DNA of 64,000 bases from Natrarchaeobius chitinivorans (lineage in GTDB: Archaea; Halobacteriota; Halobacteria; Halobacteriales; Natrialbaceae). A program made the translations under genes and the position numbers. The notes under the pieces are model-generated. The model searched no databases. It saw only the letters and a list, made by a program, of their open reading frames with translations, and had not been told where the DNA came from. The DNA is taken from contig NZ_REGA01000021.1 in assembly GCF_003841505.1 (NCBI RefSeq), forward strand, positions 1-64,000, written 5' to 3'. Positions 2,297-64,000 of this stretch are shown here, piece by piece. Numbering within the stretch: the stretch's first letter is position 1; each line of letters begins with the position of its first letter.

Positions 2297-3841
2297 ATGC
2301 CAATTTCCCGCTGGTCCCGATCTGACTCTCTCCACGGCCGATCGATTTCGTCGCTCGGCGTCGGATTGCTCGTCGCTTGCGGACTCTACTGGCAGCTTGG
2401 GAGCAGTCCGCCTCCGGTCTTGCTGTTCGAACTGGCGGTTCCGACGACGGTCGGACTCGGCTTTCTCTGGTACGGCGCGTGGATCCGTTCCGATCGGATC
2501 GATTGCGAGCGACCGACGATCGTCTCCGGATGCTCGGTCGCTGGCGGCGTTTTGACCGCTGGGCTTTTCCTCTGGAGTTTCGCTCTGGGCGCTCAGAGCG
2601 CATCGACCGTTCCCGAAAGCGCCGGTCTCCCGTTGTTACACGGGGCAGCCGTCGGAACGGCGTTCGGGGGCGTCGTCGGTCATCTCGCGGTGTATCGGTC
2701 CCGACACCGGCGCGAAACCGACCGCCTATCCCACGCAGTCGACGCCGCGATGGACGCCATCGCCGTCGTCGCCGACGACCGACTCGTCTTCGCCAACGAC
2801 GCGTACGCATCCCTGTACGGTCTCTCCGATCCGGGAACTCTCGAGGGGCGACTGTGGGGTGAACAGTACACGAACGAGTCGCTGGTCACCATCGAACGGG
2901 ACGCGATTCCCGCGGTCGTCAGGAACGGACGCTGGGAGGGGACGTTGACGGGCCGCCGAGTCGACGGCACGACGTTTCAACAGCACGTGACGATCAGCGC
3001 ACACGACCGCGAGGGTAGCTACGTCGTCGTCGCTCGCGACGTGACTGATCAGCTCGATCGAGAACAGCGCATACAGGTCCTCAACAGAGTGTTGCGTCAC
3101 AACCTCCGCAACGCCTTTACCGTCATCCGCGGACACGCGAACCTCCTCGGCGAGCACGACGAGACCCTCGAGCGCCGCCACGTCGACCCGATCCGCGAGG
3201 AGATCGACGACCTGCTCGCCACCGCGGACAAGGCCCGGGGTGTCGAACGAAAACTCGAGCGCCACGATCGAACGGAGACGATCGAGGCGACGGACGCGCT
3301 CCGGTCGGTCGTCGACAGAGCGAGAGCCGCGTACCCGAGCGTTCGGATCGTCTCTCGGACGGAAACGACGACCGCCGACTCGGGATCGCCGGTGGTCGAC
3401 GCCGCGGTCGTCGACGCACTCGACGAACTCGTCGACAACGCCGTCGAACATCAACTCGACGGCGACCGGACGGGACGACCCGACAGCGAACCGGTGTCGG
3501 AACTCCGTTCGGTCGACGAACCCGGCGACGTCCCGACGGTCGAACTGTCCGTCGAAGTCGCCGAGTACACGTCGACTTCCCGGCTCGAGTTTACGGTCGC
3601 CGACGACGGCGACGGGATTCCGGAGTCCGAACGGCGGGCAGTCCTCGAGGGAACCGAGACCCAGCTGGCACACGGATCGGGACTCGGACTGTGGTTCGTC
3701 AGCTGGATCACCGGAAACGCTGGCGGCGACGTGCAGTTCGCAGACCGGCCTGGCGGCGGCACTGCGGTGACGCTCTCGTTCCCACAGGAAACCCGCGGGG
3801 AAGATCAGTTCCGAACGGCTGTGGCGGAACACGCGGCGTGA
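2297..3841 (+). CDS. Membrane sensor histidine kinase with PAS domain
   Basis: 514 residues. Residues 15-135 hold four hydrophobic segments, then a PAS domain (about 147-255), then a HisKA-like dimerisation helix with phospho-acceptor H268 in LNRVLRHNLRNAFTVIRGHA. The ATPase domain shows an N box (DALDELVDNAVEH), G1 (VADDGDGIP) and G2 (GSGLGLWFVSWI). The RHNLRN form of the H box is the common haloarchaeal type. No receiver domain or partner response regulator is adjacent, so the output is unknown. A TATA-like TTTATA at about 2259 precedes the ATG. It shares an upstream region with the BNR-repeat gene but nothing indicates joint function. Confidence 0.9.
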   Translation: MPISRWSRSDSLHGRSISSLGVGLLVACGLYWQLGSSPPPVLLFELAVPTTVGLGFLWYGAWIRSDRIDCERPTIVSGCSVAGGVLTAGLFLWSFALGAQSASTVPESAGLPLLHGAAVGTAFGGVVGHLAVYRSRHRRETDRLSHAVDAAMDAIAVVADDRLVFANDAYASLYGLSDPGTLEGRLWGEQYTNESLVTIERDAIPAVVRNGRWEGTLTGRRVDGTTFQQHVTISAHDREGSYVVVARDVTDQLDREQRIQVLNRVLRHNLRNAFTVIRGHANLLGEHDETLERRHVDPIREEIDDLLATADKARGVERKLERHDRTETIEATDALRSVVDRARAAYPSVRIVSRTETTTADSGSPVVDAAVVDALDELVDNAVEHQLDGDRTGRPDSEPVSELRSVDEPGDVPTVELSVEVAEYTSTSRLEFTVADDGDGIPESERRAVLEGTETQLAHGSGLGLWFVSWITGNAGGDVQFADRPGGGTAVTLSFPQETRGEDQFRTAVAEHAA

Positions 3842-3900
3842 TCCGGTCGAACCGGACGTATCCGTCTCGGCTCGTACAGGAACCGGCCGGCCGACTCCCC

Positions 3901-4017
3901 GTCACAGCGCCAGGGGGCAACCGACCCGGTCACGGCGTCAGGAGGGAATCGTCCACGTCACAACGTCAGGAGAGATCCGTCCCCGTCACAACGTCAGGAG
4001 AGATCTGTCCCCGTCAC
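3901..4017. repeat. 28-bp tandem repeat, four units
   Basis: Four consecutive 28-bp units start at 3901, 3929, 3957 and 3985, each beginning GTCAC, with a fifth GTCAC at 4013. Units 3 and 4 differ at one base; units 1 and 2 are more diverged. The array fills the gap between two convergent genes and touches the stop codon of the minus-strand gene at 4014. It may contribute to termination, but no stem-loop is obvious. Confidence 0.85.
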
Positions 4018-4427
4018 TCGACCGCGAACGTCTCCTCGTCCATTCGGAGCCCGCCGAACCAACACTCGAGCGCGAAGAGCCCGCCGTACACCGCGACGAA
4101 GAGCGTGACGGCGGCGGTTAACAGCCCGAAGCCGCTCGGTCCCGATAGCAACGTCGCGAAGCCGACGGTGCTCGAGCCGACCGCGAGCAGTGCGAGGCCG
4201 ACGGCGGCAACGCGAGGCCAGCCGACCGTCCTCACGCCGAGCGGGAGCCGCTCGCGGACGCCGGCGGCGAACAGCGTGAGGCCGACGATGACGAGCCAGC
4301 CGATCTGCCACGCCGCTCCGGGGGCGGAAAGCCCACCCCAGAAGACGACGATACCGCCGGCGAGAAGTATCGTGACGAACCCGGCGGCGGCAAAGCCGCG
4401 ACGGACGGTATCCTTGCGTTCGCTCAT
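4014..4427 (-). CDS. Small four-TM membrane protein of unknown function
   Basis: 137 residues with four hydrophobic helices at roughly residues 11-31, 38-58, 71-91 and 97-120, a basic N-terminus (MSERKDTVRRG) and an acidic tail (MDEETFAVE). No recognisable motif. The stop codon abuts a tandem repeat and the ATG lies 100 bp from the end of uvrA, which points the same way, so it may be transcribed from uvrA read-through. Function is not known. Confidence 0.7.
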   Translation of the reverse strand: MSERKDTVRRGFAAAGFVTILLAGGIVVFWGGLSAPGAAWQIGWLVIVGLTLFAAGVRERLPLGVRTVGWPRVAAVGLALLAVGSSTVGFATLLSGPSGFGLLTAAVTLFVAVYGGLFALECWFGGLRMDEETFAVE

Positions 4428-4527: not shown

Positions 4528-7491
4528 TCAGTCGTCGTCCATCGGCGCTGATACCGGTTCGACGCGCTCGCCGCGTGGCCCCTCGAGGTCGACGTCGGGC
4601 AGCAGGTCCCGGAGGTAGCGTCCGGTGTAGGAGTCCTCGAGGCGGGCGATCTCCTCCGGGGTGCCGGTGGCGACGACCTCGCCGCCGTTCTCGCCGCCTT
4701 CGGGTCCGAGGTCGATGACGTGGTCGGCGTTTTTCACGAGGTCGAGTTCGTGTTCGATGACGACGACGGTGTTGCCGTTGTCGGTCAGCCGGTGGAGGAC
4801 GTCGATGAGCTTGCGCTCGTCCTCGGAGTGGAGTCCGGTCGTCGGCTCGTCGAGCAAGTACAGCGTCTCGCCGGAGTCTTTTTTCCCCAGTTCCTCGGCG
4901 AGTTTGATCCGCTGGGCCTCTCCGCCCGACAGCGTCGTCGACGGCTGGCCGAGTCGCATGTAATCGAGGCCGACGTCTTTCAACAGCTCGAGACGCCGCC
5001 GGATCTGGCTCGAGGATTCGAAGAAGTCGTAGGCCTCCTCGACGCTCATCTGGAGGACGTCGGCGATGGTCTTGCCCTTGTAGGTGACGTCGAGGGTGGC
5101 GTCGTTGTAGCGGTCGCCGTCGCACTCTTCACAGGGGACGTAGACGTCCGAGAGGAAGTTCATCTCGATCTTGACGGTGCCCTGCCCACCACACTCCTCA
5201 CAGCGGCCGCCCTTGACGTTGAACGAGAACCGGCCCTTCTCGTAGCCACGCTGTTTCGAGAGTTTGGTCTGGGCGAACAGTTCGCGGACGTAGTCGAAGA
5301 CGTTGGTGTACGTCGCCGGATTCGACCGGGGCGTGCGACCGATCGGCGACTGGTCGATCAGCCGGACGGTCTCGATCTCGTCTATCCCTTCGATCGCGTC
5401 GTGGTCGCCGGGGATGACGCTCGTGTTGTCGTTCATCTCGCGGGCGAGACCCTTGTACAGCACCTCGTGCATGAGCGTGGACTTGCCGGAGCCGGAGACG
5501 CCGGTGATCGCGGTGAAACAGCCGAGCGGAAGGTCCACGTCGACGTCGTCGAGGTTGTGCTGGCTCGCGCCGAGGATCGTCAGCACCCCGTCTGGATCGC
5601 GGCGGTCGTCGGGGACGGGAATCTGCTTTCGACCCGAGAGATAGTCGCCCGTGAGCGACTCTTCACAGGCTTTGACCTCCTCGACGGGACCGTTGACGAC
5701 GACTTCGCCGCCGCGTTTGCCCGGCCCGGGGCCCATGTCGATGACGTTGTCCGCACGGCGCATCGTCTCCTCGTCGTGTTCGACCACCAGGAGGGTGTTA
5801 CCGAGATCTCTGAGTTCCTCGAGGGTGTCGAGCAAGCGGTCGTTGTCCCGCTGGTGGAGCCCGATCGACGGCTCGTCGAGGACGTACAACACGCCGACGA
5901 GCCCGGAGCCGATCTGGGTCGCGAGTCGAATGCGCTGGCTCTCGCCGCCCGAAAGCGTCGAGGCTTCGCGGTCGAGGGTGAGATACTCGAGGCCGACTTC
6001 GACCATGAAGCCGAGTCGTGCGCGGATCTCTTTGAGGATCTCCTCGGCGATCACCTTCTCGCGCTCGGTGAGGTCGGCCTCCATCGACTCGAAGTGGGAG
6101 AGGGCGTCGCCGATGCTCATTCCGTTGATCGCGGTGATCGACGTCGCGTCGACGAGAACGGCCCGACTTGCGGGCTTGAGACGCGTGCCGTCGCAGGCCG
6201 GACACTCCGTCACCGACATGTAGTCCTCGATGTGTTCGCGGGTCGAGTCGGAGTCCGTTTCGAGGTACCGGCGCTCGAGGTTGGGGATGATCCCCTCGAA
6301 GCGCTTTCGCTTGCGTCGGGTGCCGTTTTTCGTACTGCGCTTGAAGACGACCTCGTCGTCGGTGCCGTAGAGGAACGCTCGCTGTACGTCCTCGCCCAGG
6401 TCGGCAAACGGCGTGGACAGCGAGACGTCGAAGTGCCCTGCGACCGCGTCGAGGCGGGTGCGGTAGTACGACCGGTTGTAACTCCAGGGCTCGAAGACCT
6501 CCTTCAGCGGCTTCGATTCGTCCTGGATCACGAGGTCTTCGTCCACCTCTTTCGTCTCGCCAAGTCCCTCGCACTCGGGACAGGCACCGTGTGGCGAGTT
6601 GAACGAGAAACTCCGTGTCTCGATCTCCGGGACGTCGATCCCGCAGTGGGTACACGCCAGATCCTTCGAGAACTCGGCGACGAACCGGTCGTCCTCTTCG
6701 ACCTCGTCGCCGAGCGCACCCGTCCGGCGGGCTTTCTCGCCGAGATCCGCGGCGGCCTCGGCTGGCGGATCGGGGAGGATAACCTTCATGACGCCGTCTG
6801 CCTCCTCGAGTGCCGTCTCGACGCTGTCGACGATTCGCGGTCTGTCCTCGGCGGAAACTCGGACCCGATCGACGATTACGTCGACCGTGTGATCGAAGTT
6901 CTCGTCGAGATCCGGCTTCTCGAGCGTGAGGTCGTGTTCTTCGCCGTCGACTTCCACGCGGGCGTAGCCCTCCGAGACGAGTTCGTCGAACAGGTCCTCG
7001 AACGCGCCTTTCTGGTCCCGGACGACGGGTGCGGCGAGTTTCGCCTTCGTTCCTTCGGGGAGCTCGAAGATCCGCTCGACCATGTTTTGTGCGCTCTGTT
7101 CGCCGACCTCCCGCCCGCAGTCGGGACAGTGTGGCGTGCCGACGCGGGCGTAGAGGAGACGGAGATAGTCGTGCAGTTCGGTGACGGTCCCGACCGTTGA
7201 GCGAGGGTTGTTCGCGGCGTTTTTCTGGTCGATCGAGATCGCCGGCGAGAGGCCCTCGACAGTTTCGACCTGTGGTTTGTCCATCTGCCCGAGGAAGTTC
7301 CGGGCGTACGCCGAGAGGCTCTCGATGTAGCGGCGCTGCCCTTCGGCGTAGACCGTCTCGAACGCGAGCGAGGACTTGCCCGATCCCGAAAGTCCGGTGA
7401 CCACGGTGAACGATTCGCGGGGGATCGTGACGTCGAGGTCTTTCAGGTTGTGCTCTTCTGCACCTCGAACCTCGATGTGATCCATACTCAT
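4528..7491 (-). CDS. uvrA: Excinuclease ABC subunit A
   Basis: 987 residues, the normal UvrA length. First ABC half: Walker A GLSGSGKSS (about 34-42), zinc motif CPDCG near residue 122, signature TLSGGESQRIRLA. Second half: GVSGSGKSTLMHEVL, zinc finger CEECGGQGT...CEECDGDRY, signature TLSGGEAQRIKLA and a Walker B LYLLDEPTTGLH. With UvrB it scans DNA and recognises bulky lesions in nucleotide excision repair; archaeal copies were acquired from bacteria. Start is ATG 7491 or the second ATG at 7485 (MDHIEV). uvrB and uvrC are not in this window. Confidence 0.98.
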   Translation of the reverse strand: MSMDHIEVRGAEEHNLKDLDVTIPRESFTVVTGLSGSGKSSLAFETVYAEGQRRYIESLSAYARNFLGQMDKPQVETVEGLSPAISIDQKNAANNPRSTVGTVTELHDYLRLLYARVGTPHCPDCGREVGEQSAQNMVERIFELPEGTKAKLAAPVVRDQKGAFEDLFDELVSEGYARVEVDGEEHDLTLEKPDLDENFDHTVDVIVDRVRVSAEDRPRIVDSVETALEEADGVMKVILPDPPAEAAADLGEKARRTGALGDEVEEDDRFVAEFSKDLACTHCGIDVPEIETRSFSFNSPHGACPECEGLGETKEVDEDLVIQDESKPLKEVFEPWSYNRSYYRTRLDAVAGHFDVSLSTPFADLGEDVQRAFLYGTDDEVVFKRSTKNGTRRKRKRFEGIIPNLERRYLETDSDSTREHIEDYMSVTECPACDGTRLKPASRAVLVDATSITAINGMSIGDALSHFESMEADLTEREKVIAEEILKEIRARLGFMVEVGLEYLTLDREASTLSGGESQRIRLATQIGSGLVGVLYVLDEPSIGLHQRDNDRLLDTLEELRDLGNTLLVVEHDEETMRRADNVIDMGPGPGKRGGEVVVNGPVEEVKACEESLTGDYLSGRKQIPVPDDRRDPDGVLTILGASQHNLDDVDVDLPLGCFTAITGVSGSGKSTLMHEVLYKGLAREMNDNTSVIPGDHDAIEGIDEIETVRLIDQSPIGRTPRSNPATYTNVFDYVRELFAQTKLSKQRGYEKGRFSFNVKGGRCEECGGQGTVKIEMNFLSDVYVPCEECDGDRYNDATLDVTYKGKTIADVLQMSVEEAYDFFESSSQIRRRLELLKDVGLDYMRLGQPSTTLSGGEAQRIKLAEELGKKDSGETLYLLDEPTTGLHSEDERKLIDVLHRLTDNGNTVVVIEHELDLVKNADHVIDLGPEGGENGGEVVATGTPEEIARLEDSYTGRYLRDLLPDVDLEGPRGERVEPVSAPMDDD

Positions 7492-7680
7492 GGGCGAGGT
7501 GATACTGGTGACTGAACGGTTTCGCGACTCGATACCCGATTCATCGTAATTGCGTCAGTGGCCGAAGGGACTTAACAAGCCTGAAAACGGAATAGGATGT
7601 ACTGTGCTAGCATATGACCTTCAACGGCGAGTCGAGGGCGCGTCCAAAGTGACTTCGGTCGGGAACGCTAACTGACCGGT

Positions 7681-8232
7681 ATGAGCGACGACGGTCCATC
7701 GGTTTCGGTCGGCGAATTCGTCGACTACTGTCGGACGCAGGCCGGCCTCCTCTCCGGGCGGGTAGAGACGATGAGCGACGAAGCCGACGAGTTACTCGAC
7801 GAGATCGACGAGGAGATGGCCGAGATCCGCACCCGACTCGGCGAACGAAACGTCGGCCCGGCGACGCCGTCGTCGACGGACCGTCCCACCAGCGAGGAGA
7901 TCGACGTCGACGCGATCGAGGAACTCCAGCGGGACCTCGAGGAAAAGCAGTTACTGGTCGAGGCGAAGCAAGCCCGGATGCAAGCGTTTCAGGAACTCGC
8001 CGCCGGCTACACGGAACTCGCCGAGGCGCTCCAGTCGACCGACGACGAGGTCGAGGCGATCGAACGGATCGTCGAGTTCGAACTCGAGGAGGACGCGCCG
8101 GCGTACTTCGACGAGCGGGAGACACTCTGTGAGGCGGCGGCCGAACAGTCTGAACGGACCGAAACCACGGATGAAGCCGAACCCGACGAGAACGGCGACC
8201 CCGCGGACGAGGACGGAGACTCACCTCGCTGA
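7681..8232 (+). CDS. Conserved acidic coiled-coil protein, unknown function
   Basis: 183 residues, soluble, very acidic. Heptad-like stretches at about 22-60 (ADELLDEIDEEMAEIRTRL) and 78-125 (ELQRDLEEKQLLVEAKQARMQAFQELAAGYTELAEAL) predict a helical hairpin; the tail from residue 155 is low complexity (Glu, Asp, Thr). I recognise this as a haloarchaeal hypothetical type but know no function. It is divergent from uvrA, with 189 bp between the starts, which may hold both promoters. Confidence 0.75.
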   Translation: MSDDGPSVSVGEFVDYCRTQAGLLSGRVETMSDEADELLDEIDEEMAEIRTRLGERNVGPATPSSTDRPTSEEIDVDAIEELQRDLEEKQLLVEAKQARMQAFQELAAGYTELAEALQSTDDEVEAIERIVEFELEEDAPAYFDERETLCEAAAEQSERTETTDEAEPDENGDPADEDGDSPR

Positions 8233-8298
8233 CTGGGACCGGCCCGCGTCTGACGTTCTGTCCGATCCGGCGATGGGCACTACCACACGAGATGGTAC

Positions 8299-8366
8299 AC
8301 CGACGGCGACGCTACTGATACGGCCTACCGTCACCGACGGCGACGCTGCTGATACGGTCTGCTGTC
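8299..8366. repeat. 34-bp tandem duplication
   Basis: Two 34-bp units (8299 and 8333) both read ACCGACGGCGACGCT then a CTGATACGG core, differing at a few bases. The CTGATACGG core is the same sequence that ends the second dispersed palindrome family of this window. The surrounding stretch 8233-8656 has no gene I can support; it is open in the kinase frame but its translation is Arg/Ser/Pro-rich and unlike the family. Confidence 0.7.
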
Positions 8367-8656
8367 CGTAGGTGCTCTGCGAACGCGACCTCGACCCGCC
8401 CTCCGTCCCACCGGCTGAGGGACGCCCGTCCGAGATTCGCTTCGATCGACTCTCCGAGAGCGATCCCGTGAGCCACGAAAACTCGAGTTCGTTACCGGTC
8501 CTCGAGACCTCGAGTGATGACAGGTATCAGTCCGATCGGGGCGTGATGACGGGTGTCAGTCCGGATCGGCGTGATCCCTGCCGGAAGAACAATGAGGGTC
8601 GTTTCCCAACTCCAGCAAACACTCGAATGCTGGGGGGACTGTCGTCGGTCGGATCA

Positions 8657-10291
8657 ATGAGGCTCGGGTACGCTCTCGTCTTCGGCGTCGGCGCACTCGT
8701 CTGTTTCGTGAGTCTCCGACGGACGGCGGCTATCGAACACGAGGACACGCGCCGCGGCCTCTACTGGCTGTTGCTTGCGAGCGGTGTCTGGGCAGCCACG
8801 CACGTCGGCTATCTCGTCGCCTCGAGTCCCCGACTCCAGTACGTGCTGTTTACCGGCGGGCTGATCGCCGGAATCGCCGCCGTCGGACCCTGGCTCTACT
8901 TCTGTTCGGCCTACACCGGCCGGTCGCTTCACCGAAACGAGACGATCCGTCGGATCGCGGTCGCCGTCTTCCTCGTGATCGTCGGGGTGAAAGTGACGAA
9001 CCCGATTCACGAGCAGTACTTCGTCACCGAACTCGTTACGACGCCGTTTCCCACCCTCCAGATCCACCACGAACCGCTTCACTGGGTGGTGATGGGATTC
9101 GCCTACGCGCTCTCGTTCGTCGGGTTTTTCATGCTGCTCGAACTGTTCGTCCGCGTTAGCTCCGATACGACGCCGCTTTTCGCCCTCGTCGGCCTCACCG
9201 GTCTGCCGGTCGTCTTCGACGTACTCGGCGTCGTCTCGCCGCTGCTCCTCGACATCACGTACTCTCCGCTCGGCGTGGCTGCATTTTCGATCGGGGTCTT
9301 TTACGTCTACCTCGAGCGGTTTCAGATCGTCAGAGCCACCAGCGAAACCGATCAACCGGTCGTTATTCTCGACGACCGCGATCAGGTTCGGGATTACAAC
9401 GGCCGAGCACTGGATCTCTTCCCTTCGCTCTCGGGAAGCATCGGACGACAGTTCGAAACGTTGTTACCCGACGTCGCCGACGTACTCGAGTCCGAAGAGC
9501 AGTTGCTCGAGGCCGACGTGAGCGAAGAAATCAGGTTCTATTCCGTCTCGGAGAACCCCTTTTCGGCGGATCGGACGCGGATCGGCCGTGCGGTCGTGTT
9601 CACCGACGTCACCCACCGGGAACAGTATCGCCTGCGGTTGGAACAACAGAACGATCAACTCGAACGGTTCGCGAACGTCGTTTCCCACGACCTTCGGAAC
9701 CCCCTTTCGATCGCGCAGGGGAGAACACAACTCGCCGTCGCCGAGAACGAAACCGACCACCTCGAGGACGTCGTCGAAGCCCTCGATCGAATGGAAGAAC
9801 TGATCGACGACATTCTCGTCCTGGCTCGAGACGGGGCCTCGATCGACGACGTCCAACGGGTCGATCTCTCGTCGATCGCAGGACAGTCGTGGACGATGAT
9901 CGCGGCCGAGGATGCCGAACTCGCCGTCGACATCGAGCTCGGGACCGTCCTCGAGGCGGATCCGGACCGACTGCAACAGCTATTCGAGAACCTGTATCGG
10001 AACGCGATCGATCACGGCGACTCCGACGTGACGATAACCGTCGGCGAGTTGTCCGACTCCGACGGGTTCTACGTCGAAGACGACGGACCGGGAATTCCAG
10101 CCGAGATCCGTGCGGACGTCTTCGAACCCGGGTATACGACTGCCGACGCGGGAACGGGTCTCGGCCTCTCGATCGTACGGGACGTCGCCGCGGGCCACGG
10201 TTGGTCCGTCGAGGCAACGGACGGACCCAACGGCGGTGCGCGGTTCGAAGTGACGGTTCCGAGTCTCGAACGCCCTCAGCCGACGTCCTGA
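8657..10291 (+). CDS. Histidine kinase with 7TM N-terminal domain and PAS
   Basis: About 544 residues from ATG 8657 (MRLGYALVFGVGAL); ATG 8627 would add ten residues, and the longer open frame to 8372 is probably untranslated. Seven hydrophobic helices in residues 1-225 match the 7TM histidine-kinase input module, followed by PAS (about 232-325), HisKA with phospho-acceptor H344 in FANVVSHDLRNPLS, N box NLYRNAIDHG, G1 EDDGPGIP and G2 GTGLGLSIVRDVA. It ends without a receiver domain. A ligand-sensing or redox role is not deducible. No regulator gene is next to it. Confidence 0.92.
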   Translation: MRLGYALVFGVGALVCFVSLRRTAAIEHEDTRRGLYWLLLASGVWAATHVGYLVASSPRLQYVLFTGGLIAGIAAVGPWLYFCSAYTGRSLHRNETIRRIAVAVFLVIVGVKVTNPIHEQYFVTELVTTPFPTLQIHHEPLHWVVMGFAYALSFVGFFMLLELFVRVSSDTTPLFALVGLTGLPVVFDVLGVVSPLLLDITYSPLGVAAFSIGVFYVYLERFQIVRATSETDQPVVILDDRDQVRDYNGRALDLFPSLSGSIGRQFETLLPDVADVLESEEQLLEADVSEEIRFYSVSENPFSADRTRIGRAVVFTDVTHREQYRLRLEQQNDQLERFANVVSHDLRNPLSIAQGRTQLAVAENETDHLEDVVEALDRMEELIDDILVLARDGASIDDVQRVDLSSIAGQSWTMIAAEDAELAVDIELGTVLEADPDRLQQLFENLYRNAIDHGDSDVTITVGELSDSDGFYVEDDGPGIPAEIRADVFEPGYTTADAGTGLGLSIVRDVAAGHGWSVEATDGPNGGARFEVTVPSLERPQPTS

Positions 10292-61329: not shown

Positions 61330-61647
61330 ATGAGTTCCACACCATCGGAAGCCGAGACGCACGAAGTTGCGCTCTCTCGAGAAGAACAATGGGTCGTCCA
61401 CCACGTTCTGGCAGCCCGCGTCGACGACGCGCTCGACGCGGACGAGACACCGCCAGCGTGGGCACTCGCGGCGTTCGACGCGATCGAATCCGACGAGAAT
61501 CCGGAGACGTTCACCCACCGACAGGTTCGTCGAATCGCGAACGAACTGAGCGGCTATCTCGACTCCGAGACGACACCGGAACAGGATCTCGTCCACGGGT
61601 CTTCCGTCCTCGAGCGGTTCGAGGATCGCCTCCACGCGTCGTCGTGA
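61330..61647 (+). CDS. Small helical protein, unknown function
   Basis: 105 residues, soluble, all-helical (VALSREEQWVVHHVLAARVDDALD, AFDAIE, FTHRQVRRIANELSGYL, SSVLERFEDRLHAS). Resembles short haloarchaeal DUF proteins. A leader of roughly 30 nt follows the TATA-like box. No function assigned; convergent with the next gene. Confidence 0.75.
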   Translation: MSSTPSEAETHEVALSREEQWVVHHVLAARVDDALDADETPPAWALAAFDAIESDENPETFTHRQVRRIANELSGYLDSETTPEQDLVHGSSVLERFEDRLHASS

Positions 61648-62208: not shown

Positions 62209-63465
62209 ATGAGCAGTGCGACGCGATCGCTCTCGGAACCGCAGGTGCTCGCCCACACCAAGCGGCGGCTGTTTCCGACGGAGGACGTCGAATCGGATCG
62301 CAGCTCTCCCTCGTACGTGGTCGCCGACACGCAGTTCTCGCAGGCGGAGTGGCTCCCCGGTCGCCCCATCGATCCGGCGATCCGGAACTGTCTGGCACCG
62401 TTTAACCACGTCAGGATCGGCGGCGGCTATCCAGATCTCGTCGGCGTTGGACCTCTCGAGGCGGACCTGCTCACCGTCGACCGCGTCGGCGACGAACCGC
62501 CGCTGATCGCCGTCGAGGCGAAAGGGTACGCGAGCGACGGCGTCGACACCCGCCGCGGGATCGTCCAGGCCTACGATCGGCTCCACGAGGCCAACGCCGC
62601 CTACCTCGCCGCACCCGCGGACGCGATCGCCGAGACGGATCGAACGCTCGCGCGGGAACTGAACGTCGGCGTCCTCGGCGTCGACTCCGCGGGAGACGTC
62701 GACGTGCTCGAGACGCCCCGCATCGTCGGCAATCGAACGACGACCGAGGCGACGGCGCTTCGCTTTCAGGCGGGGGCACAGGGGGTCGCGAACGCCTCGT
62801 TCGGGCTCAATCACCCCAAAAACTACCTCGGCTATCCGCTTGCCCACTACGCCGACGGCGACACCGGGACGCTCCTCGCGGAGTACGACGTGGTCGGTGC
62901 GGTGACCGACGCCAGACGCGGGGCCGAATTCCTGGGATTGATCGAGGACGGACCCCGGGTCGAGTTGACCTCGCTCGGCCACGAGGTCGTACGTTTTGCG
63001 AGAAGCCGCTGTGGCTCGGTGACGGCCGCCCTCGAGGAGTTCCAGGAGTGGTACCGATCCAGAACGCGATTCGTCGACCTGGCACCTGAGTGGGGCCAGC
63101 TCGCCCGCCGAATCGTCTTCGAGTATCCCGCCACGGAGTTGCTCGTCACCGAACTCCAGACCATGCACGACGACTGGCAGCCAGAGCCCACCCTCGTGGA
63201 TCTGGTCGAGCACATGCACGAACTCCATCCGACGTTCGCCGTCGAGTTGTTCGTCCGGAGCGACGAAGCCGTCCGCGGACGCGTCCTAACCGAAGACGGA
63301 CGCCTCCGGTCGGCGGCGCTCGAGGACGGCTCCGTCTACCACTCCCCGACCGTCTTCCAGCTCAAGGCGATGCTGTATCACACCGGGATTTTGACCGAAC
63401 GCGGGAGCGAGCCGAACCGGCTCGAGCCGACCGAGGACGTCTGGGCGCTTCGCGAGCCGGTCTGA
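62209..63465 (+). CDS. PD-(D/E)xK nuclease-like protein
   Basis: 418 residues. Restriction-fold core: P75-D76 in GGGYPDLVGV, then E103-A-K105 in LIAVEAKGYA, then the downstream Q120 in GIVQAYDRLHEANAAYLAAP: D...E-x-K with the QxxxY helix. The rest (about 150-418) is mixed helix/strand with a winged-helix-like GAEFLGLIEDGPRVELTSLGHEVV, compatible with DNA recognition. It precedes an Eco57I-like methylase gene by 133 bp on the same strand, so a restriction or defence role is inferred, not shown. No known specificity. Confidence 0.7.
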   Translation: MSSATRSLSEPQVLAHTKRRLFPTEDVESDRSSPSYVVADTQFSQAEWLPGRPIDPAIRNCLAPFNHVRIGGGYPDLVGVGPLEADLLTVDRVGDEPPLIAVEAKGYASDGVDTRRGIVQAYDRLHEANAAYLAAPADAIAETDRTLARELNVGVLGVDSAGDVDVLETPRIVGNRTTTEATALRFQAGAQGVANASFGLNHPKNYLGYPLAHYADGDTGTLLAEYDVVGAVTDARRGAEFLGLIEDGPRVELTSLGHEVVRFARSRCGSVTAALEEFQEWYRSRTRFVDLAPEWGQLARRIVFEYPATELLVTELQTMHDDWQPEPTLVDLVEHMHELHPTFAVELFVRSDEAVRGRVLTEDGRLRSAALEDGSVYHSPTVFQLKAMLYHTGILTERGSEPNRLEPTEDVWALREPV

Positions 63466-63598
63466 CCGTTCGAACGGGGAGTCTGACCGATCGGACAAAG
63501 GACTATACCGTTCCGTTGATCTACTCCATACCGTGACGAGACGGCACGTTCGAAACGAAACGGACGAGCGACGGACGGTCGCTCGACCGCCGTAACCG

Positions 63599-64000
63599 AT
63601 GTACACCCCGACTAGCCGCGACGGAATCCACGCGTCGTTTTCCGAGTACTTCCTCGAGGATCGCCTCCAGGAAACGACGGCGTGGGCAGAGATCGACGAG
63701 GACGAACTCCGGACGGCCCACGACGAGGTCGCCGCCGTCTGGGGGCGAGAGCGGCCGGCTGCACCAGGGTACGACCGCGCCGAACTCGAGGAGTCGCTCG
63801 TCGAGCCGATTCTTCGCGCGCTCGACGTCCCGTTCGTCCGCGTCGGCCGCGAGACTCCCTCCGATCGACCGCGGCGGCGGCCCCAGTACGCCCTCGGAGG
63901 GCGATGGGAGGTCGCCGCCGAAAGCGCGGTAACCGCACCCGAACCGGCCGACGAGTCCGACGAGCCGTTCGGTAACGCGGTCGCCGTCGCCGACGTGAGA
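63599..64000 (+). CDS. Eco57I-like restriction-modification methylase, N-terminal part
   Basis: ATG 63599 opens a frame of 134 codons that runs off the right edge without a stop. MYTPTSRDGIHASFSEYFLEDRLQETTAW, then WGRERPAAPGYDRAELEESLVEPILRALD and PQYALGGRW, matches the N-terminal domain of haloarchaeal Eco57I-type (type IIG/PglX-like) proteins as I remember them. The methylase motifs (GxG, NPPY) lie beyond the window. Partial, so the family call is tentative. Confidence 0.6.
   Translation, partial: MYTPTSRDGIHASFSEYFLEDRLQETTAWAEIDEDELRTAHDEVAAVWGRERPAAPGYDRAELEESLVEPILRALDVPFVRVGRETPSDRPRRRPQYALGGRWEVAAESAVTAPEPADESDEPFGNAVAVADVR

Follow-up and report, generated by a model that had tools for sequence, protein, structure and literature searches.

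The locus and its two genes

The DNA analysed, referred to below as the window, comprises the first 64000 bases of a contig of 76579 bases from a haloarchaeal draft genome of 4.57 Mb. At its right edge lie two open reading frames on the same strand. Gene A is complete within the window and gene B runs past its end, starting at position 63599. The first-pass annotation had described this arrangement as a PD-(D/E)xK protein beside an Eco57I-like N-terminus, and both reading frames are indeed present. The features of the two genes are as follows:

62209..63465, + strand: gene A (P0001), open reading frame of 418 aa; conserved haloarchaeal PD-(D/E)xK protein with no named family
62221..62733, + strand: predicted N-terminal nuclease domain of gene A, about residues 5-175, from the helix/strand order of the model and VIA-align 2 matches
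62434..62436, + strand: putative catalytic D76 of P75-D76 in gene A, invariant in 70/70
62515..62523, + strand: E103-A-K105 of gene A, invariant in 70/70
62566..62568, + strand: Q120 of gene A, on the following helix; Q in 69/70, E in 1/70
62770..63462, + strand: C-terminal half of gene A, residues 188-418, of winged-helix type and a probable DNA-binding part, from a separate model and fold matches
63599..64000, + strand: N-terminal part of gene B (P0002) inside the window; the gene, of 1319 aa, ends at 67558
63884..63886, + strand: Q96 of gene B, at the site of the D of P-D in relatives, from the motif tables
63992..64000, + strand: D132-V-R134 of gene B, at the site of (D/E)-A-K in relatives, from the motif tables

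The genes are separated by 133 bp. A promoter and terminator scan of this gap, designed for bacterial promoters, found nothing. Co-transcription of A and B in this genome is possible, given their common strand and short distance. On the extended contig (locus L003), gene B occupies positions 5600-9559, equivalent to 63599-67558 in window coordinates. The window closes with nine bases (63992-64000, GAC GTG AGA) that encode D-V-R, the degenerate catalytic site of gene B, which the first-pass annotation overlooked.

Upstream of gene A, a 105-aa DUF7853 protein is encoded at 61330-61647. The left flank of gene A is not the DCC1-like gene common in many other genomes of the family, and because of this difference the left side has probably been rearranged here.

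Gene A as a protein family

The residues on which the PD-(D/E)xK assignment had been based were found in the 418-aa translation as P75-D76, E103-A-K105 and Q120. Their conservation was assessed in an alignment of 70 rows, consisting of 49 of the 80 named loci, 20 distant loci and the window's own protein. The alignment excludes L100 (7001-8239, + strand), a Haloarculaceae relative with an in-frame stop. D76, E103 and K105 are unchanged throughout, at identities down to 36%, and Q120 is kept in 69 of the 70 rows, so that the motif, judged by its conservation, is not a chance one. The PD...(D/E)xK pattern typical of the superfamily is thus conserved in 70/70 and falls on the expected fold in the model. 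The stretch N201-H-P-K-N205 in the C-terminal half is likewise invariant.

The relatives fall into a main branch, with 61-84% identity to gene A (49 rows), and a second branch with 36-46% (20 rows). Within the main branch, mean pairwise identity is 0.67 in the recognition-like half, compared with 0.69 in the nuclease. Scanned singly, the 70 members gave no Pfam family at E < 0.001, the best match being DnaT (E 0.0015, 7 members). Neither an NCBIfam nor a PADLOC family matched, and sequence comparison returned no PDB chain at E <= 1. A literature search combining haloarchaea with PD-(D/E)xK nucleases, a motif name that is hard to search, matched no paper. Relatives in 12 plasmid records are annotated solely as hypothetical protein. 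Distant paralogues, at about 42% identity, are carried by plasmids and also lie close to mobile or nuclease genes.

Predicted fold of gene A

The AlphaFold model of the whole protein has a mean pLDDT of 84.6 and a pTM of 0.60, and its N-terminal half shows the expected order of helices and strands. Modelled alone, the C-terminal half reaches a pLDDT of 89.1 and a pTM of 0.85. In VIA-align 2, a Z under 8 may mean merely a common arrangement; the best matches of the whole model are 3dnx (Z 9.8) and PaqCI (Z 8.5 over 277 residues), followed by Nt.BspD6I (Z 8.2), which aligns with the C-terminal half. The entry 3dnx is titled as a protein of unknown function; presumably it belongs with MmcB. Over residues ~2-174 it matches the PD-(D/E)xK enzymes 2vld (Z 7.7, 97 aligned, 2.7 A), EndoMS 5gke (Z 7.3) and BsmI 9f38 (Z 6.8).

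Five proteins, among the matches listed, align with the C-terminal half from end to end: Nt.BspD6I (Z 7.3, 153 aligned), FokI (7.1, 159), BrxA (6.5, 151), PaqCI (6.3, 163) and SspB (5.8, 161). All of these matches are to DNA-recognition or DNA-binding parts, none of them reaches Z 8, and short winged-helix matches score alike, up to Z 7.4. With Foldseek, nothing in the PDB was found at E <= 0.001 for the whole protein or for its C-terminal half, and two viral proteins matched gene A at this threshold; the viral matches are named MmcB-like DNA repair. The fold evidence is weak, since the matches score within, or close to, what the tool regards as common. The models hint at a domain order in which a nuclease comes first and a winged-helix part second, as in PaqCI.

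Distribution and neighbourhood of gene A

In the sample of the order, gene A is present in 139 of 243 genomes and missing from 104. It occurs in 44 of the 46 own-family genomes of that sample and in 95 order genomes outside the family. Across the whole family, where a stricter limit was used, it was found in 117 of 125 genomes and was missing from 8. A search of 294 genomes of the phylum gave 37 matches, all within the own order, so an occurrence of gene A elsewhere was rejected. The idea of a viral gene was also abandoned: 61 stretches of viral contigs matched a pattern, and none was confirmed as a relative. Within the genomes searched, and by sequence, gene A is an unnamed family confined to Halobacteriales and without a fixed partner.

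The neighbours of gene A vary between genera, as seen in 81 loci (the own contig and 80 named ones). The neighbourhood table excludes L099, where the gene caller, a codon-usage script that was trained on seven genes of this region and misses genes in lower-GC genomes, found no gene A. A recurrent frame exists in Natrialbaceae: a DCC1-like gene on the left, gene A, a variable slot, HalOD1, phosphogluconate dehydrogenase and further metabolic genes. The slot is occupied by gene B in L003, L035 and L044 (the latter two taken as genomes G223 and G140) and is empty in L061 and L062. The other Natrialbaceae loci listed have different genes there, among them a transporter and an HNH nuclease.

Several other neighbours were observed. 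A 494-aa HNH_2 protein lies antisense near gene A in 10 loci (L036, 8268-9749, - strand, and nine related loci) and shows a below-cut-off likeness to phosphorothioate-dependent restriction endonucleases. In Halorubrum, gene A stands directly before an AddB/AddA-like pair in L090 and L092, with two genes between them in L109; the pair consists of an 878-aa PDDEXK_1 protein and a 967-aa UvrD/PDDEXK protein. With 20 query proteins, relatives of gene B were found in 4 of 101 neighbourhoods of gene A, namely L003, L035, L044 and L158. The last of these belongs to a distant gene A paralogue (46% identical); some 2 kb away from it lies an EAK-kind gene of the type IIG family (L158, 2-3976, + strand).

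Gene B and its degenerate nuclease site

The Eco57I-like reading of the N-terminus had called for extension of the sequence past 64000, and this extension yields a complete gene B up to position 67558. The protein matches the Pfam families Eco57I (E 4.2e-24), N6_Mtase (7.6e-9) and TaqI_C (2.7e-7), as well as the PADLOC model DrmMI (E 6.8e-48) and several type IIG models, including REase_MTase_IIG. The adenine methylase motifs DPAMGTGRF and NPPW lie in the same chain, as in type IIG enzymes, and the corresponding patterns DPxxGxGxF and NPP[WY] are kept in all 32 relatives tabulated. Tests for a DISARM or BREX component were negative. Against the NCBIfam BREX-1 PglX model the protein scores 48.6 bits, below the cut-off of 500, and none of 10 neighbours, nor gene A, matches any PADLOC model at E <= 0.001. 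These neighbours are all the genes, A apart, that were called within 3.1 kb upstream of the start of B and 6.3 kb downstream of its end.

Type IIG enzymes, as the first-pass annotation pointed out, usually carry their own nuclease. This holds for gene B as far as the domain is concerned; the active site, however, has been lost. Relatives read RPDY...VADAKRW...YQI or similar, whereas the own protein reads RPQY...VADVRRW...HRM. PD, (D/E)xK and Q are thus replaced by PQ, DVR and R, and the catalytic D, K and Q are gone. Judged from its residues, the chain has no working PD-(D/E)xK site, and the fused nuclease looks dead.

The loss is shared within a clade. A tree built without the N-terminal part gives a B clade of 21 (91/83), made up of 20 own-family members and G055; the reading frame of G055 has only a short N-terminal part and is excluded from the motif counts. 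In the B clade, both the lysine and the helix glutamine are kept in 0 of 20 members, and the aspartate is lost in 7 of 20, including the own protein. The (D/E)xK position reads DVR in 11 members, PVG in 2, AIC in 2, and DIR, NVY, DVS, HST and QTC in one each; the glutamine position holds R in 19 and G in 1. In the other 12 relatives, the lysine is kept in 11 (G114 has DTE) and the glutamine in 12. G101, the sister of the B clade, retains DAK and the helix Q, with PE for PD. A smaller motif table of 20 proteins gives the same picture as the 32-protein table. Since the 20 members with a lost site share a tree, their losses are not to be counted as 20 separate events; with G114 and the unscored G055 taken into account, a total of three changes of nuclease label is required on the tree.

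Reading frames of 1241-1397 aa and intact methylase motifs are present in 20 of 20 clade members. Selection was estimated as dN/dS by the Nei-Gojobori method with an own script. In the N-terminal part, values of 0.38-0.58 were obtained for six pairs of the B clade versus 0.05 and 0.09 for two motif-intact pairs, a contrast that spans unequal divergence (dS 0.1-0.36 versus 0.8 and 1.7). In the methylase part, the clade gives 0.26-0.46 and the motif-intact comparison, with one pair only, 0.26. These estimates are read as relaxed, not absent, constraint. Because the fused nuclease site is lost and the methylase motifs are intact, gene B probably descends from a type IIG enzyme and now stands as a solitary methylase; a nuclease partner encoded elsewhere is conceivable.

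Within genus g2, gene B is present in 16 of 29 genomes. The clade occupies four kinds of place, and the sets of genomes sharing a place correspond to branches of the tree. Apart from HalOD1, gnd and DCC1-like, the gene names used for these places were read from sequence starts:

HalOD1-gnd: own genome, G223, G197, G511 and G140; gnd next to HalOD1 was not seen in G223 and G140
Short-chain dehydrogenase gene: G184, G047, G154, G524, G533, G527 and G530; leuS lies beyond in four
Thiamine-diphosphate enzyme-like gene: G211, G526, G532, G525 and G523
LysE-like gene: G055, G518, G519 and G520

Association of genes A and B

The proximity of the two genes had suggested a restriction-modification or defence pair that would be conserved in other genomes. 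Close relatives of gene B were found in 21 of the 125 family genomes at E <= 1e-110. Only three of the 21, or 3 of 125, have A next to B: the own genome G000, G223 and G140. Both genes are present in 20 of 125 genomes, one of them with a broken A fragment, and chance predicts about 19.7 (21 x 117/125). Gene A is found in 117 genomes regardless of B, including 97 without a close B. The pair reading fails because gene A is nearly everywhere and the number of genomes with both genes is what chance gives.

Individual genomes show the same separation. In G533 gene B is present and no A passes the limit applied, and G519 has B with only an A fragment containing a stop. In the two congeners G197 and G511, gene B keeps the HalOD1-gnd flank, gene A is on another contig with the DCC flank, and both genes are open. 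The reading of A and B as one system was rejected because co-occurrence is at chance level, the slot is variable and two congeners have the genes apart. The side-by-side position goes back to a gene A that is almost ubiquitous in the family and to one place inherited by B.

A methylase elsewhere in the genome was considered as well. A search for small methylases in the own genome gave two matches to PF01555 and none to PF02086. One is a 401-aa PF01555 methylase-like protein with the motif DVPYW on contig C14 (G000, 2897-4099; L214, 1141-2343, + strand). It is present in 45 of 46 own-family genomes and in 0 of 197 others in the order sample. As the partner of gene A it was rejected, being confined to the family, whereas gene A occurs in 95 order genomes outside it.

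Possible roles of genes A and B

The reading preferred here, and considered probable, is that the two genes are independent and form no restriction-modification system: gene A as a near-core nuclease without a fixed partner, gene B as a solitary methylase with a dead nuclease. Gene A would be a near-core haloarchaeal endonuclease or nickase, in which a metal-dependent PD-(D/E)xK domain is followed by a winged-helix DNA-binding half. The former would cut DNA and the latter would aim the cut. Gene A most likely cuts or nicks DNA, and its target may be a sequence, a lesion or a branched structure. The fused nuclease activity of gene B would have been lost near the base of the clade in its own family. 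What then remained would be a solitary methylase, kept at a small number of fixed chromosomal sites that include the slot between A and HalOD1-gnd. It would still methylate DNA, most likely at adenine and without restriction.

For the task of gene A, a housekeeping role as an endonuclease of DNA repair or replication, in the manner of NucS/EndoMS or MmcB-like proteins, is a real possibility, if one slightly short of an even chance. It agrees with the near-core status of the gene in the family and with the matches of the nuclease domain to the NucS/EndoMS-type structures 2vld and 5gke and to viral MmcB-like proteins. The AddB/AddA-like nuclease-helicase pair directly following gene A in two Halorubrum loci leans in the same direction; the type IIS likeness leans the other way. 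However, absence from 8 of 125 family and 104 of 243 order genomes means that the gene is not essential, repair neighbours are limited to a few genera, and a PD-(D/E)xK fold does not tell function.

It is more doubtful that gene A acts as a solitary type IIS-like restriction enzyme, from which the host is guarded by a methylase elsewhere or by site avoidance. The predicted order of nuclease and winged-helix half resembles that of PaqCI (PMC10201449), the C-terminal half resembles the recognition parts of FokI, Nt.BspD6I and PaqCI and also BrxA and SspB, and the distant paralogues on plasmids and near mobile or nuclease genes fit such an enzyme. Nevertheless, the C-terminal matches lie below the noise line of the tool, and conservation in the recognition-like half matches that in the nuclease, which sets it apart from diversifying target domains. 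Methylases of the B family, the only one searched for, are absent from 97 of 101 neighbourhoods, and the family-confined C14 methylase cannot be the general guard of gene A.

A bolder combination of these elements is offered as a speculation that is rather unlikely to hold. Halobacteriales would possess a near-core restriction-enzyme-like nuclease with a recognition half and no methylase, type IIS-like in build and used for genome maintenance or control of foreign DNA. In this lineage, its mirror image would stand beside it, the type IIG protein B, with the methylase kept and the nuclease lost.

Instead of working as a solitary methylase, gene B may be an inactivated gene heading for loss as a whole, which is unlikely. 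The rather high dN/dS of the methylase part (0.26-0.46), the short N-terminal part of the G055 reading frame and the precedent of silent haloarchaeal type IIG genes reported in PMC5867850 are compatible with decay. Against it stand the full-length reading frames and intact methylase motifs in 20 of 20 members of a deep clade, together with the lineage-fixed locations.

A split restriction system, with B for recognition and methylation and A as a nuclease acting in trans in place of the one lost from B, is highly improbable: the same-strand adjacency in three genomes, the dead nuclease of B next to the intact active site of A, an A match in 20 of 21 B genomes (one only a broken fragment) and a split pair proposed in Haloferax (PMC4389544) are outweighed by the occurrence of B without an intact A in G533 and G519, of A in 97 family genomes without a close B and in many other families, by the separation of the two open genes in G197 and G511, and by a later study that did not confirm the Haloferax effect (PMC5867850).

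At least 20 type IIG-family proteins have lost the nuclease site and kept the methylase motifs, at four kinds of place. The B clade may serve as a natural series for how a restriction system becomes a solitary methylase inside one chain; its sister in G101 still has (D/E)-A-K and the helix Q, with PE for PD. Gene A marks an unnamed, testable family of putative nucleases, present in over half of the sampled haloarchaeal genomes. A general caution also follows: neighbourhood need not mean partnership when one gene is nearly everywhere.

Comparison with known systems

The closest known counterpart of gene A in domain order is the type IIS enzyme PaqCI (PDB 8epx), in which, by the published description, the nuclease precedes the recognition domain; FokI has the opposite order (PMC10201449). 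Like PaqCI, gene A appears to have an N-terminal PD-(D/E)xK domain followed by a recognition half (Z 8.5, 277 residues). It differs in having no fixed methylase neighbour, the rmsd of the alignment is high (9.8 A), and there is no sequence likeness to PDB chains. NucS/EndoMS (2vld, 5gke) and MmcB-like proteins share the fold of the predicted nuclease domain alone, with no sequence match, and gene A has in addition a predicted winged-helix half of about 230 residues.

A related pair has been described in Haloferax volcanii, where joint action was proposed for the PD-(D/E)xK fragment HVO_A0006 and HVO_A0237, a truncated type IIG methylase (PMC4389544). According to a later report, an effect of HVO_A0006 on methylation was not found and HVO_A0237 does not contribute to methylation (PMC5867850). 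What this pair has in common with A and B is that one haloarchaeon encodes both a small PD-(D/E)xK protein and a methylase of the type IIG family. However, HVO_A0006 is a detached type IIG N-terminus beside transposases, whereas gene A belongs to a separate conserved family with a winged-helix half; gene B, unlike the truncated HVO_A0237, keeps its N-terminal region in degenerate form.

Gene B shares with type IIG enzymes of the Eco57I/TaqI_C kind (REase_MTase_IIG) an N-terminal nuclease-type region, a methylase and a TaqI_C-like specificity part in one chain. In contrast to these enzymes, the own protein lacks the catalytic D, K and Q, and K and Q are gone in all 20 clade members scored. Two persistent methylases are also reported in PMC10609329. 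HG4, an orphan m6A methylase of Natrialbales with the motif CATTC, may be the same as the C14 PF01555 methylase. HG5, a PglX-like methylase of Haloterrigena with the motif CTGGAG, resembles gene B as a persistent m6A methylase of PglX/type IIG kind in the same family. Haloarchaeal restriction systems are described as patchy in distribution (PMC6471742), and the B clade, with its lineage-fixed places, differs from them in this respect.
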